Shown here piece by piece: positions 46,320 to 63,035 of a DNA stretch of 64,000 bases. Both the position numbers and the translations under genes were made by a program. The notes under the pieces are model-generated. The model was not told where the DNA came from, made no database searches, and saw only the letters and a program-made list of their open reading frames with translations. Position 1 is the first letter of the stretch, and every line of letters starts with the position of its first letter. This DNA comes from Paenibacillus sp. FSL M7-0420 (GTDB lineage Bacteria; Bacillota; Bacilli; Paenibacillales; Paenibacillaceae), in contig NZ_JBBOCJ010000001.1 of the NCBI RefSeq assembly GCF_038002345.1, forward strand, positions 1,674,001 to 1,738,000, given 5' to 3'.

Positions 46320-46640
46320 AGTGCAGAGGTTATAATCCGCATACATGCAATGATGGAGAAGAGTACGCAGTGCCTGGCTTACAGGGAGGAAGCGCCGTAG
46401 ATTGAGAGCGTTTCTAAGAGAGCAGAGCTGCCGAAGTTCACTCCGGAGCAGTTCCCTGAATGTGCTTGAAGAGCGCTAGTAGGGGGGACCGGCCGCAGAC
46501 CGTTATTTCTGTATAAAGTGAGACAGGTCTTTGCCGCACCGAAAGAGGGAATATTGCTCTTAAGGGAAGCGTACGGCCGTCTAACAAGGGTGGTACCACG
46601 GTCTTTTCGTCCCTTTACCGGGAGGAAAGGCCTTTTTTTG
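46320..46640 (+). promoter_or_regulatory. T-box riboswitch of pheS (Phe)
   Basis: The T-box core AAGGGTGGTACCACGG at 46586-46601 is followed by an intrinsic terminator (stem about 46600-46632, seven T at 46633-46639). Upstream lies a stem I region with purine-rich bulges. Phe codons TTC occur at 46437-46439 and 46452-46454; I cannot decide which is the specifier without folding. Uncharged tRNA-Phe should stabilise the antiterminator and turn on pheS. The 556-bp gap holds only this element and its promoter. Confidence 0.92.
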
Positions 46641-50701: not shown

Positions 50702-53020
50702 GTGGCTATGGACCGGACCCGTGTCGCCGTGGAGATATACGGAACTTCCTACAAGCTTGTCGGAAGCAGCACAGAATATATGAAGCAGGTCGCCCGTCAT
50801 GTCGATGAGCATATGCGTGCAATATCGAAATCACATTCCAGACTGGATACGCCGCGGATTGCGGTGCTTACAGCTGTACATATGGCAGAGCAGGCAATCC
50901 AGGTTCAGGATTTCAAGAATGAGCTGAATATGCTGACCGGTGAACGTACCGAGCTGCGAGTAGAGGTGTCACGCCTTCAGGAAGCGCAGCGTGAACAGCA
51001 GGAAGAATATGAGAAGCTGGAAGCGGCAGCGAAGGAAGAGGCGGCGCGGTTGATTGCCGCTGCCGAAGAAGAACGCTCAAGGCATCTGGAGCAGCAGGAG
51101 CAGGAGCGGCAGCTGCAAGCCCAGCTGCTGGAGGAAGAGAAGCAGGCTGCGGCCGCCGCCCGCGAGCAGCTGGTGCAGGAGCTGAAGACACGCGAGGAGG
51201 AGCTTAAGGCGCTGCGCCAAGGTCATGCAGCAGAGCAGGCTGCAAGCCGTGAGACGGCGCGGCAGGAGCTGGAAGCCGCAGAAGCCATGCGGCTACAGCA
51301 GCTGGAAGAGTTGAAGTCTGCCCATCAGCAGGAACTGGAGCAGCTGCGCGAGACGCTGATCCGCGAGAAGACAGAGACGTTGTCTGCCCTGGAGCAGGAG
51401 CTGCATGAGACGCGGGAGTCGATGGGCAGCGAGATCGTGGAGATCCGCTCCACGCTCAGCAAGGAGCTGGCTGATACCAAGGCCGCGCTCACGAGTGAGC
51501 TTACCGGGGAACGGGAAGCGCTTGAGAAGGAGCAGGCCAAGAACAAGGAGCTGCGGCAGTCCCAGGGGACGCAGGAGCACCGGCACAAGCAGCAGCTTCA
51601 GGAGCTGGAGAAGCAGCTTGGGGAGCTGCGCGGCGGAACCGGGCAGCTCCAGTCCCGGCTGCGGGCGGCGGAAGCCGGGCTGAAGGGCGAACGCGATGCG
51701 CGGCTGACGCTGCTGGCGCAGTACGAAGCTGTGCTGAAGCGGGAGGAGCAGCTCGGGGAGGAGCTGCGGCTCGCGGCAGAGGGGGCGGAGCAGCATAGCG
51801 CCGAGCTGGAGGAAGCTCGCCGGCGCTATGGGGCTGTAGAGAGCGAAGCGGCAGAGCTGCGCGGCGCGCTGCAGGAGAAGGCGGACAAGCTGAGCACGGC
51901 GCTTGAGGAGCTGCACACTGCTACGGAGCTTGGCAATCTGCTGAACGATGAACTGGAAGGGCTCCGCCAGCGTTATGAGCTGACGCAGGAAGAGGCGGCA
52001 GCTCTACGCACATCGCTGCGTGAGACCGCAGACAAGCTGAGCACGGCGCTTGAGGAGCTGCACACCGCTACGGAGCTTGGCAATCAGCTGAACGATGAGC
52101 TGGAAGGGCTCCGCCAGCGTTATGAGCTGACGCAGGAAGAAGCGGCAGCACTGCGCACATCTCTGCGGGAGACCGGGGACAAGCTGAGCCGGACGCAGGT
52201 CGAATTCGACCGCACGGCCGAGGAGGCTGCTTCCTGGCAGGAGCGCGCCAATAAGCATATGGAGGATATCGGCGAGCTGGAGATGAAGCTTCTGGAAGAA
52301 GGGGAGAAGTCGGCAGCACTGCAGCGTGAAGTGGAGACCCTGCGCGGACAGGCAGACGGCATGGTTCAGCAGCTTGATCAGGAAGCGCGGCTTCGTGCCG
52401 AAGCGGAGCAGGAGCTTACCGTTCAGCAGGAGGCGGCAGAGACAGCCCGCAAGGAACTGGCAGCGCTGCGCGGCCGTTACGAGGAGCTGATCGCCCAGTA
52501 CGACGAGATTCTGCAGGACGGGGAGCAGCTGAAGGAACGCTGCGAGCTGCTGGAAGCTGAAGGCGAGGAAGCTGCGCGGCGAATGGAAGAGCTGTATGAG
52601 GCAGGCCGTGAAGCTGCCGCTGCGTCGGCGGAGCAGCAGGAAGCACTCCGCGAGACCCGGGAGTACGAAGCTACCTGGAAGCAGAAAGCTGAGGAGCTTC
52701 AGCAGCGCGAGCAGCAGTGGAACGAGCAGGAGGCACAGCTGCGCGAGGAGATAGAGATCTGGCAGCAGGAGGCCCGGGAAGCCGAGGCCCAGGCGGAAGC
52801 AGTCAGCCGCTCGCGCACTGAGGCAGCGCAGCAGCTGGATGAAATCGGCGAGAGCTATGAGATGGTCCAAGGCCAGCTGCGGCTGGTTCAGGCCCAGTTC
52901 GAGCTGCAGCAAGGGGAGCTGGAGAAGCTGTCCCAGGAGCATCGCAGCCTGCAGGCGGAATATGCCAAGCTGCAGAGTGAATATAATGAATGGATTCAAC
53001 TGATCGAACAGGACAGTTGA
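50702..53020 (+). CDS. zapA: ZapA-domain protein with very long coiled coil
   Basis: This 772-residue protein begins with a ZapA domain (about residues 5-95: RVAVEIYGTSYKLVGSSTEY, then ARHVDEHMRAI and IAVLTAVHMAEQAI). ZapA is normally 85-110 residues and bundles FtsZ at the division ring. The other 680 residues are one Glu/Gln/Leu/Ala-rich coiled coil with almost no Cys or Pro. Residues 394-442 and 443-491 are near-identical 49-residue repeats, and a third begins at 492. GTG 50702 follows AAGGAGGG by 7 nt. Position after pheT matches zapA synteny in Bacilli, so a divisome role is inferred. Confidence 0.85.
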   Translation: MAMDRTRVAVEIYGTSYKLVGSSTEYMKQVARHVDEHMRAISKSHSRLDTPRIAVLTAVHMAEQAIQVQDFKNELNMLTGERTELRVEVSRLQEAQREQQEEYEKLEAAAKEEAARLIAAAEEERSRHLEQQEQERQLQAQLLEEEKQAAAAAREQLVQELKTREEELKALRQGHAAEQAASRETARQELEAAEAMRLQQLEELKSAHQQELEQLRETLIREKTETLSALEQELHETRESMGSEIVEIRSTLSKELADTKAALTSELTGEREALEKEQAKNKELRQSQGTQEHRHKQQLQELEKQLGELRGGTGQLQSRLRAAEAGLKGERDARLTLLAQYEAVLKREEQLGEELRLAAEGAEQHSAELEEARRRYGAVESEAAELRGALQEKADKLSTALEELHTATELGNLLNDELEGLRQRYELTQEEAAALRTSLRETADKLSTALEELHTATELGNQLNDELEGLRQRYELTQEEAAALRTSLRETGDKLSRTQVEFDRTAEEAASWQERANKHMEDIGELEMKLLEEGEKSAALQREVETLRGQADGMVQQLDQEARLRAEAEQELTVQQEAAETARKELAALRGRYEELIAQYDEILQDGEQLKERCELLEAEGEEAARRMEELYEAGREAAAASAEQQEALRETREYEATWKQKAEELQQREQQWNEQEAQLREEIEIWQQEAREAEAQAEAVSRSRTEAAQQLDEIGESYEMVQGQLRLVQAQFELQQGELEKLSQEHRSLQAEYAKLQSEYNEWIQLIEQDS
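51881..52174 (+). repeat. 147-bp tandem duplication inside the zapA fusion gene
   Basis: Two in-frame units begin at 51881 and 52028, and the start of a third lies at 52175. Spacing is 147 bp (49 codons). The copies differ at few positions, which suggests a recent duplication. Confidence 0.85.
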
Positions 53021-60381: not shown

Positions 60382-61575
60382 ATGCAGCTGCAAAAAGAGC
60401 TTAAGGAACCTGAAACGGTTCCGGCCGCCGGAGGATCGCGCTTGCGTACCCTGTTCGGCAAAATGGATATGCGTGCTTATACGATGATTGGCGCATTAAT
60501 TCTGATCTGGGTCCTGTTCGGCGCGTTGAATCCAACCTTCCTGACCTCGCGGAACCTGTCCAATCTGTTCACGCAGATGTCGGTGACCTCTATACTCGCC
60601 ATTGGCATGGTGCTGGTTATCGTAGCGGGCCATATCGATCTGTCCGTCGGCTCCATCGTCGGCTTGACCGGCGGGATGGCGGCGATTCTCAGCAACTGGC
60701 TGGAGCTGCCCGCTATCGTGGTCATTCTTGGTACCGTGGCCGCAGGTGCGGTGTTGGGTCTGGTGCAGGGCTGGCTGGTCGCCTATAAAATGATTCCCGC
60801 CTTCATCGTCACCCTCGGCGGGATGATGGTGTTCCGCGGGGTGCTGATGGGCGTGACTGAATCAATGACCATTCCGGTATCTGATCCGGTGCTGGCGCTG
60901 CTCGGCAATGCCTATTTTGCCTCAGGCTTCGGAATCATTCTGGGCGTACTCGCAGTGGCTCTGCTGCTGTATAGCGCGTTCACGAAGCGGCGCTCCCGCA
61001 AGAAATACGGGTTCACTGTCGCCCCGCTCGGCATGGATATCGCGAGGGTAACAGGACTGTCCCTGCTCGTGGTAGTCTTCGTGGCCTTGATGAACAACTA
61101 CAAAGGGATTCCGTTCCCGATCATCTTCGTCATTGTGCTGGCGGCCATCTTCTACTTCCTGTCCACCAAGACGACCTTCGGCCGCCATATCTATGCCATA
61201 GGCGGTAATATTGAGGCAGCGCGGCTCTCCGGGATCAACATCAAGCGCAAGACGATGATGGTCTTCATCCTCAGCGGCCTGCTCGGCTCCATCGCCGCCA
61301 TCGTGCTGACCTCCCGCCTGGCCTCGGCGACCATTACCGCAGGCAATATGGCCGAGATGGACGCCATTGCCGCCTGTGTCATCGGCGGCACCTCCCTGAT
61401 GGGCGGAGCCGGAACGGTCATCGGCGCTCTGATCGGAGCGCTGGTCATGACCTCGCTCGATAACGGCATGTCGCTGATGGGACTGGAGTCGTTCTGGCAG
61501 TATGTGGTCAAGGGCTCGATCCTGGTCATCGCCGTCTGGCTGGACATTTCAGGCCGCAGCAAGGGTGTGAAGTAA
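60382..61575 (+). CDS. xylH: xylose ABC transporter permease
   Basis: This 397-residue permease of the RbsC/XylH group has about ten membrane segments. Visible family blocks are VLVIVAGHIDLSVGSIVGLTG near the start, ALGGMMVFRG in the variant form VTLGGMMVFRG, GRHIYAIGGNIEAARLSGIN and the C-terminal GGTSLMGGAGTVIGALIGAL. It forms the membrane pore with XylG and is the last gene of xylFGH. A hairpin at 61592 follows. Confidence 0.95.
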   Translation: MQLQKELKEPETVPAAGGSRLRTLFGKMDMRAYTMIGALILIWVLFGALNPTFLTSRNLSNLFTQMSVTSILAIGMVLVIVAGHIDLSVGSIVGLTGGMAAILSNWLELPAIVVILGTVAAGAVLGLVQGWLVAYKMIPAFIVTLGGMMVFRGVLMGVTESMTIPVSDPVLALLGNAYFASGFGIILGVLAVALLLYSAFTKRRSRKKYGFTVAPLGMDIARVTGLSLLVVVFVALMNNYKGIPFPIIFVIVLAAIFYFLSTKTTFGRHIYAIGGNIEAARLSGINIKRKTMMVFILSGLLGSIAAIVLTSRLASATITAGNMAEMDAIAACVIGGTSLMGGAGTVIGALIGALVMTSLDNGMSLMGLESFWQYVVKGSILVIAVWLDISGRSKGVK

Positions 61576-61591
61576 GAGCAATTAACATGAA

Positions 61592-61627
61592 TAAGCCGGC
61601 CGGGACGATGTCCCTGCCGGTTTATTT
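61592..61627 (+). terminator. terminator after xylH
   Basis: CCGGC.GGGAC pairs with GTCCC.GCCGG across GAT, followed by TTTATTTG. Confidence 0.75.
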
Positions 61628-61653
61628 GTTGTAGTAGAAAACTATAGTATGTG

Positions 61654-61814
61654 ACGGACGGAAAACCGAACACAATGTACACGTGCTAGGTGAGTGAGCC
61701 GGATGTATGCGGAAAACCGAATATAATGTGCACGTGCGAGGGTGAGTGGGCCGGATGTATGCAAAAAAACTAATATAATATGCCAGTGCGTAGGTGAAAG
61801 AGCCACGTGCAGGC
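61654..61814. repeat. family A tandem array, three units, 51-52 bp pitch
   Basis: Units begin at 61660, 61711 and 61763. The core is GGAAAACCGAATATAATGTG in unit 2 and similar in unit 1; unit 3 is degenerate. GCACGTGC, a perfect dyad, follows in unit 2. A single unit of this family also occurs at 5.73-5.77 kb. Confidence 0.8.
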
Positions 61815-62100
61815 CAAGCGAACCCAATGAGACGCATTAGTACACCTGAATTCCTCAGATGAGGGCCGAATGAGCCCAATGAGGCGCACTAGTGCACCTG
61901 AATTCCTCGGATGAGGGCAGAACGAGCCAATGAGGTGCACTAGTACACCTGAATTCCTCAGATGAGGGCCGAACGAGCCAATGAGGTGCACTAGTACACC
62001 TGAATTCCTCAGATGAGGGCAGAACGAGCCAATGAGGTGCACTAGTGCACCTGAATTGCTCAGATGAGGGCCAGACGAGCCAATGAGGTGCACTAGTGCT
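61815..62100. repeat. family B tandem array, six units, 51-bp pitch
   Basis: AATGAG starts units at 61826, 61878, 61929, 61980, 62031 and 62082 (spacings 52, 51, 51, 51, 51). Each holds a dyad whose best form is GGTGCACTAGTGCACC, then TGAATTCCTCAGATGAGGG. Units 2-5 are nearly identical; the first and last are degenerate, and the last stops inside the dyad. Confidence 0.92.
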
Positions 62101-62141
62101 GCACAATTGCCCATGAGGCCCTGGAAAGTTGGCTAAACGAG

Positions 62142-62396
62142 CGAATGAAGGAAATGAAAGGGATAAATCCCTCTGAATCCGCCGAAAGTGGGCGGACGGA
62201 GTAAATGAAAGGGATAAATCCCTCTGAATCCGCCGAAAGTGGGCGGACGGATCAAATAAAAGGGATAAATCCCTCTGAATCCGCCGAAAGTGGGCGGACG
62301 GATCAAACGAAAGGGATAAATCCCTCTGAATCCGCCGAATGCGGGTGGACGGATCAAATGAAAGGGATAAATCCTTCAGAGCCCGCCGGAAGCTGG
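62142..62396. repeat. family C tandem array, five units, 51-bp pitch
   Basis: GGATAAATCC starts units at 62161, 62212, 62263, 62314 and 62365; every spacing is exactly 51 bp. Each unit holds the dyad GGGAT-AA-ATCCC and, in the first three units, a second hairpin TCCGCC/GGCGGA. The fifth unit is degenerate. With families A and B it fills the 847-bp convergent gap between xylH and the cupredoxin gene. Confidence 0.92.
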
Positions 62397-62422
62397 GTTA
62401 TTCCACTCTGTTAATCCCCCCT

Positions 62423-62809
62423 TTATTCCACAATAATCTTGGCGGTCATTGCGCTGTGGCCGGAGCCGCACATGATGGCACAGGTCATCTCGAAGGTTCC
62501 GGCTTCCTCGGGCAGCACCACCTGCGAGGAATTCTTGGCATCCAGCCGCAGCTTCATCTCCGGGATCAGAATGCCGTGATTGCCGCTCTCATTTTCAAAG
62601 ATGATTTTGACAGGGACGCCCTTCTTCAAATGGTACTCCGGCTGGTCAAAGCTATAATTGCTGGCCGTAATGACGAGTTCTTCCTCCGCCGTCAGATTGC
62701 TCCCGGCAGCTGCGTTGTTTGCGCTATCAGAATTGCTGCTGTTCCCTCCGCAGGCCGTTAGCAGAAGCACAAAAAGAATAGAACAAAGAATAGCCGACTT
62801 CCTGATCAT
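62423..62809 (-). CDS. cupredoxin lipoprotein with CuA-like copper site
   Basis: This 128-residue lipoprotein has a signal peptide with lipobox LLTAC (lipid Cys20), a Ser/Asn/Ala linker and a cupredoxin domain. Candidate copper ligands are His78 (GNHGILIPEM), Cys110, Cys114, His118 and Met121 in CAIMCGSGHSAM. That spacing, C-x3-C-x3-H-x2-M, is that of the CuA centre of cytochrome oxidase subunit II, but the usual Glu between the cysteines is Ile. ATG 62809 follows GAGGAGG by 6 nt. No oxidase genes are adjacent. It may be a copper carrier or an electron-transfer protein. Confidence 0.85.
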   Translation of the reverse strand: MIRKSAILCSILFVLLLTACGGNSSNSDSANNAAAGSNLTAEEELVITASNYSFDQPEYHLKKGVPVKIIFENESGNHGILIPEMKLRLDAKNSSQVVLPEEAGTFEMTCAIMCGSGHSAMTAKIIVE

Positions 62810-63035
62810 ATGCATCCTCCTCATCTACTTGGACAGTTGACCTTAGCATAGCCTAAATCGGTCAAGTTGTCTTGATCAATCTATGAAAAATACTCTATCC
62901 ACCGTTATTCAACGTATCTGCAAACTTTGTCGAAATTTGCAAAAATATGATGCAAAATAGTTTAAAATTAATTATAATTAAGCCTAATATAATTAAAGCT
63001 TCATATTATTCCACTAGAAGCAGGGGAGTCATATC

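Follow-up and report, generated by a model that had tools for sequence, protein, structure and literature searches.

Near the end of the 64,000-nucleotide stretch of Paenibacillus sp. FSL M7-0420 DNA analyzed here (hereafter the window), two genes converge on a gap that is filled by tandem repeats. The upstream gene, on the plus strand (60382–61575), was identified by gene calling and a domain match as an ABC permease (BPD_transp_2) and has a periplasmic binding protein gene and an ABC ATPase gene as neighbors, while the downstream gene, on the minus strand with its stop at 62423 (62423–62824), is cupredoxin-like, scoring 26.5 bits, slightly below the Pfam cut-off of 27. All gene calls come from a simple hexamer-based gene caller. 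Between the permease and the repeats lies a terminator-like hairpin with a T-rich tail (61590–61629, plus strand, by eye); a terminator of −21.4 kcal/mol is predicted in this interval, and a similar hairpin was seen by eye at the same place in most relatives inspected. The repeats, all listed on the plus strand, start about 30 bp past this hairpin. Array A (61659–61804) holds approximately 2.8 units of 51–52 bp with the short hairpin CGGAAAACCG (TRF: period 52, 2.8 copies, 80% matches); array B (61824–62097, TRF and profile) holds approximately 5.4 units of 51 bp with a palindrome around GGTGCACTAGTGCACC (period 51, 5.4 copies, 92% matches); and array C (62152–62397, TRF and profile), which has B's scaffold, holds approximately 4.8 units of 51 bp with the hairpin AGGGATAAATCCCT (period 51, 4.8 copies, 91% matches). 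The bases between them, at the A–B junction (61805–61823) and in the B–C linking stretch (62098–62151), resemble degenerate units by eye, so that the locus reads as one composite array. Thus, three back-to-back arrays with a pitch of 51–52 bp in a convergent intergenic gap, as described in the initial annotation, are confirmed. The units abut directly, and unique spacers of the CRISPR type are absent from the locus. At the gathering threshold, no Rfam family was placed over the array. The window's sole Rfam match is a T-box leader at 46341–46617 (RF00230, 100.8 bits), and a 147-bp repeat (49 codons; 2.2 copies, 91% matches), possibly coding, lies at 51867–52189.

The locus is one member of a genome-wide family of interspersed 51-bp tandem arrays. 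When 400 kb of evenly spaced sequence from the same genome was surveyed with TRF (period of at least 20, score of at least 80, overlapping rows merged by eye), 51–52 bp was the commonest tandem period, and within the window it accounted for three of four arrays. A genome-wide peak near 51 bp had been suggested as a check on whether the common pitch exceeds chance; it is passed, because 13 of the 22 distinct sampled arrays have this period, and the pitch is both real and genome-wide. A search of the genome with the locus returned at least 89 matches, with 40 of 155 first-look candidates scored, and TRF applied to 30 excised loci of this genome recovered the 51–52 bp period at the matching positions and separated the units into two main classes: class C, with the hairpin AGGGATAAATCCCT, and class B, with a palindrome around GTGCACTAGTGCAC. 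With the window left out, the B and C profiles align on one scaffold in one register with a score of 20.1, which none of 2000 column shuffles reached (null 0.4 ± 3.3; next-best rotation −0.6); B and C are therefore not independent. Comparisons of A with C and of A with B were not significant, as 1240 and 1026 of 2000 shuffles, respectively, did as well. The three families had been taken as unrelated, which thus fails for B and C and stands for A, and the pitch that A has in common with B/C is not explained by sequence in common.

In the examined sequence of this genome, the B/C profile found 46 clusters, five pairs of which represent one array each, interrupted by an insertion sequence (IS) or MITE-like insertion, and the A profile found 14 loci. 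The class A arrays come from the examined stretches only, and the nine that fall within the 400 kb sample scale to roughly 170 loci genome-wide. Overlap with called genes does not exceed 60 bp in any of the 46 B/C clusters, and by this simple caller the arrays are non-coding. Open frames run across them because 51 is divisible by 3; a coding function for units of 17 codons was considered and rejected, the dyads, the intergenic position and a 52-bp class A spacing in relative G118 speaking against it. Units are arranged head to tail, and for class C (27 loci) identity is 0.84 within arrays and 0.66 between them. Of the 26 loci that carry both classes, 24 have C ahead of B in the leading-strand direction, the exceptions being the window locus and one at 4.594 Mb. 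A adjoins the other classes at few places and in no fixed order (A to B twice; A to C, C to A and B to A once each), and A comes first at the window locus in the array-bearing relatives inspected by eye. The search gave no plasmid match.

The history of the window locus was followed in relatives with the cupredoxin-like gene as anchor, which occurs in 41 of the 43 genomes of the GTDB genus and allowed 30 loci to be excised. Among the 17 excised loci with the permease or units, B/C units are present in nine genomes (this one included), all oriented alike with respect to the cupredoxin-like gene, and absent from eight that have both flanking genes; the other 13 loci showed neither permease nor units in the slice. 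Gap inspection covered seven of the unit-less eight (all except G110) and found a short gap holding just a terminator-like hairpin in six and a longer gap without units in G074. Where arrays are present, their copy number differs widely between species, which fits growth by slippage, one of the origins put forward in the initial annotation. Across the genus, 14 of 43 genomes have at least eight copies of the class C word and the other 29 at most four, compared with none of 252 sampled genomes of other genera reaching eight; G118 and G157 have few class C words and many class A words. Carriers named in the genome scan were P. piscarius, P. tritici, P. phytohabitans, P. silagei and P. ihuae, and a single match in an unrelated MAG could be fortuitous. 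The hairpin words are nearly exact across loci and species. A flank match in the array or control stretches of the FSL M7-0420 genome was found for 39 of 64 relatives' loci, part of which may reflect shared mobile elements and not orthology.

The strongest feature of the family, which is not visible from the window alone, is its replication polarity. On the leading strand, all 58 arrays in the examined sequence of this genome, counted with insertion-split arrays joined, are in forward orientation, although a single unit hit inside one of them points the other way; of four lone units, three agree with replication and one (7169900) is opposite. Arrays lie on the plus strand from 0.09 to 3.4 Mb and on the minus strand from 3.8 to 7.23 Mb, flipping at the origin and the terminus. 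Since dnaA, dnaN, recF, gyrB and gyrA lie at 7.280–7.290 Mb, the second strand flip was predicted there before inspection, and in the 400 kb around dnaA the arrays are on the minus strand at 7.123, 7.147, 7.164 and 7.232 Mb and on the plus strand at 7.333 Mb. GC skew flips in step with the array strands near dnaA and at the other flip; a pattern built on the dif-site consensus gave no match. Among individual words, 99 of the 100 listed copies of GGGATAAATCCC (115 in total) and 40 of 40 copies of AGTGCACCTGAAT agree with replication.

This polarity is not a consequence of gene strand bias, because every one of the 26 arrays in convergent gaps is aligned with replication (p about 3e-8 versus an even split). 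The 58 arrays comprise 26 in convergent gaps, 29 between co-oriented genes, two in divergent gaps and one with both genes opposed. Relative to array-free gaps of at least 150 bp, convergent gaps are enriched (26/58 versus 12/94) and divergent gaps depleted (2/58 versus 24/94). Arrays are purine-rich on the leading strand (62% versus 53%, from base counts that include overlapping stretches twice). The orientation of the family follows the direction of replication, the purine-rich strand being the leading strand, that is, the lagging-strand template.

The same polarity holds in relatives. In six of them, 102 of the 105 listed B/C loci agree with replication (G222, 31/32; G126, 30/31; G202, 18/18; G207, 14/14; G042, 8/9; G013, 1/1), with replichores assumed for G207, where skew was read only near 2.8 Mb, and for G013. 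More telling are G126 and G222, whose contigs start elsewhere than that of FSL M7-0420 and whose array strands flip at other contig positions, matching the flips of GC skew. Class A words agree at 68 of 68 places in G202 (skew read), at 12 of 13 listed loci in G207 and at 18 of 21 listed loci in G118, the last on assumed replichores. G157 was left out of these tallies; nearly all of the 50 listed among its 236 copies lie on one strand up to 2.04 Mb. Misoriented arrays of approximately 3 to 8 units occur at one locus shared by G126 (1.57 Mb) and G222 (1.77 Mb) and in G042 (6.08 Mb); further cases are a class A array at 2.81 Mb in G207 and, provided that its replichores are those the strands suggest, three of the 21 listed in G118. 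The G126/G222 locus was considered as the orthologue of that at 5.77 Mb in FSL M7-0420 and rejected, the shared flank being a dispersed element. In G118 (127231–5640263), most listed arrays space the class A word at 52 bp instead of 51 bp, which weakens strict helical phasing. The shared pitch noted initially is genome-wide and not absolute.

In G230, from another genus, a different 51-bp family fits replication at 9 of 13 loci, which is not significant (p 0.27; a 34-bp hit was omitted, two hits 3 kb apart were counted as one, and skew was read to 6.67 Mb), and three of its arrays lie within a dispersed repeat of approximately 650 bp. Three further 51-bp families with other palindromes were observed in this genome (loci L282, L285 and L288). 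The sole 51-bp array in 400 kb of G025 resembles, by eye, a collagen-type coding repeat.

Several mobile elements were observed in or near the arrays. A 1.66-kb IS (DDE_Tnp_1) splits 51-bp arrays of FSL M7-0420 in near-identical copies at 1250507–1252178, 1538189–1539847, 1770210–1771863 and 5895477–5897135; at least four of its six near-full copies are in arrays, the others lying near 2.60 and 5.80 Mb, and the copy at 1.25 Mb sits, by eye, inside a class B dyad. A MITE-like element of roughly 340–480 bp with ends GGGGCTGTCYCAAAAGT lies in or beside C units (2707092–2707548, 4015571–4016055 and 6926686–6927027), the copy at 4.016 Mb being between C and B blocks. A dispersed element of about 150 bp adjoins or sits inside the IS or MITE-like elements, near several arrays (5753583, 783310, 6146025 and 5771363; loci L199 and L205). 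Shared array flanks were considered as element ends and set aside, since the strongest are the IS, a MITE-like insertion inside arrays, or the 150-bp element; other short flank matches remain, including those at 389788 and 4601975. The search for recent transposition, a target site or an enzyme found none.

The short dyads reported at first sight in the units are borne out. Double-sided changes number 34 for class B versus at most 25 in 500 shuffles, and 33 for class A versus at most 30; the class A count (27 rows) pools CG and CGG before the A-run, which are two registers, and includes some non-A rows by eye, and its paired fraction of 0.615 exceeds the shuffles (at most 0.611) by a thin margin. 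Class C dyads showed no excess covariation over shuffles. The dyads are near-symmetric, and the polarity of a unit lies in its linkers and loops.

Several known systems resemble these arrays in part. Mycobacterial MIRU and pneumococcal BOX elements are intergenic tandem units of approximately 50 bp at many loci, and we know of no replication polarity of comparable strength in them. REP/RAYT systems, in which a conserved tetranucleotide stands beside the hairpin, are likewise short hairpin DNA. Units here run head to tail, whereas REPs in BIMEs alternate in orientation (PMC2817692). Y1_Tnp (PF01797), the sole single-strand transposase family searched for, was found in 23 of 43 genus genomes; unlike in REP/RAYT systems with their cognate Y1 (HUH) transposase, it was not detected in 4 of the 14 genomes with at least eight class C words (G134, G042, G029 and G013), two of which are drafts (50 and 20 contigs) and one of which has 198 class C words, and mobilization by a RAYT/Y1 enzyme is thereby weakened. 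The KOPS/SRS sequences recognized by the gamma domain of FtsK/SpoIIIE are skewed from origin to terminus, as the arrays are. KOPS, oriented from origin to terminus in each arm (PMC2680272), are single 8-bp motifs, whereas the arrays are tandem 51-bp hairpin units in gene gaps. The closest published behavior is that of IS200/IS605 elements, also short hairpin DNA, which are oriented in keeping with the direction of replication (review PMC5371812).

The initial annotation knew of no described element with this design, and on that point it is superseded: arrays of constant length (51–53 nt) and variable sequence, with function unassigned, have been published for Bacillus and other Firmicutes and are stated to be particularly abundant in Paenibacillus (Subirana & Messeguer 2021, PMC8161180). 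The 52-nt Firmicutes arrays are called enigmatic and stated to lack sequence conservation and an obvious function; proposals published for them are nucleoid binding and small RNA. The present arrays belong to this class in repeat length, in having several families of one length per genome (A versus B/C here, and more in G230), in being non-coding, in carrying short conserved words that often recur in reverse inside the unit, here as dyads, and in array presence and length that vary, between strains there and between species at one locus here (PMC8161180). In Table 1 of that paper, families 4_52_21 and 5_52_21 of B. thermoamylovorans resemble, by eye, each other's reverse complement and have similar numbers. 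What is added to the class is replication polarity, the B/C scaffold, the C-before-B order and the bias among gene gaps. The words “orientation,” “leading strand,” “intergenic” and “hairpin” do not occur in the main text of PMC8161180, and the literature searched by title and start of abstract, a scope that excluded a 2020 J. Bacteriol. paper on Paenibacillus, yielded no report of the replication orientation of such arrays. Overall, the initial interpretation is partly supported, with a role in binding a nucleoid protein still a candidate.

To account for these features, we tentatively propose, with confidence a little short of even, that hairpin units spread and are set in place through a process linked to the exposed template of the lagging strand, and that 51-bp slippage or unequal recombination then enlarges the arrays. 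The units would be single-strand hairpin elements dispersed by a fork process, with orientation fixed at birth by lagging-strand coupling, by analogy with IS200/IS605; 51-bp steps of slippage or unequal recombination would then expand, contract and homogenize each array, and arrays would be retained at sites where their cost is low, between genes and away from promoters. The pitch could reflect common descent for B and C and, for A, a common process copying in steps of about 51 nt. Misoriented arrays in some relatives, few in number, suit a bias at birth better than strict selection. Against the proposal, the near-exact hairpin words and the C-before-B order look like function or descent from one composite, and the family of another genus that lacks significant polarity (G230) counts against its generality.

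The main rival, and a serious one that we regard as quite possible if somewhat doubtful, is that the arrays are polar protein sites, each unit bound by a protein that has to approach it from one side, such as an FtsK/SpoIIIE-type translocase, a protein associated with the fork or an ordered nucleoid protein that repeats every 51 bp, and that misoriented arrays are removed by selection. Such sites would be expected to give the near-absolute polarity, the retention of hairpin words across loci and species, the C-before-B order at 24 of 26 loci and, as far as the flank matches of 39 of 64 relatives' loci reflect orthology and not shared mobile elements, array positions common to species. However, misoriented arrays of about 3–8 units persist in G126/G222, G042, G207 and G118 (the last on assumed replichores), 29 of 43 genus genomes manage with at most four class C words, though some of these are rich in class A words, and the near-symmetric dyads leave polarity to linkers and loops.

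Orientation-dependent survival, in which units arise both ways and are stable only with the purine-rich strand as lagging-strand template, being otherwise deleted by replication, appears improbable. It would draw on the strong purine skew, on the hairpins formed by B and C units and on the changes in copy number between species, but multi-unit misoriented arrays exist in relatives, and the dyads form alike on both strands, which would leave the linkers to supply the strand asymmetry.

Least credible, indeed very improbable, is that the arrays are structured 3′ regions or small RNAs of an upstream leading-strand gene, with polarity a side effect of gene strand bias. In its favor, a co-oriented gene precedes 55 of the 58 arrays, two-unit C and B stretches fold as RNA better than 200 of 200 and 199 of 200 shuffles, respectively, and transcription is reported for the 52-nt repeats of B. 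coagulans, which appear in RNA-seq (PMC8625621), but none of the 58 arrays follows a lagging-strand gene in its sense, although lagging-strand genes contribute 24 of the 100 gene 3′ ends at background gaps (probability of about 1e-7 if propensity were equal), single A units fold no better than shuffled ones (91 and 49 of 200 shuffles as good), and no Rfam family covers the array. A terminator is predicted before 22 of the 53 arrays with a co-oriented upstream gene and not before the other 31, with insertion-split arrays counted separately; this argues against the RNA reading less strongly than polarity in convergent gaps does. A structured 3′ RNA, suggested initially as a reason for the layout, is disfavored because all 26 convergent-gap arrays follow replication.

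Taken further, the proposal of lagging-strand setting leads to a speculative and, at present, unlikely extension, namely that a still-unknown fork-coupled process of Firmicutes writes hairpin units onto the lagging-strand template about 51 nt at a time and so generates a polar interspersed satellite with a chromosome-wide direction, by which replication or segregation might in turn be guided. Unit sequence would be free to change, as between A, B/C and the families of other genera, because such a process would measure length and strand and not sequence. That the arrays align almost without exception with replication, whichever way the genes point, narrows the candidates to causes that act at the fork or read its strand polarity. 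A strand flip at the origin and the terminus offers a cheap test for other array-bearing genomes, and polarity thus provides a testable handle on a repeat class of enigmatic purpose.
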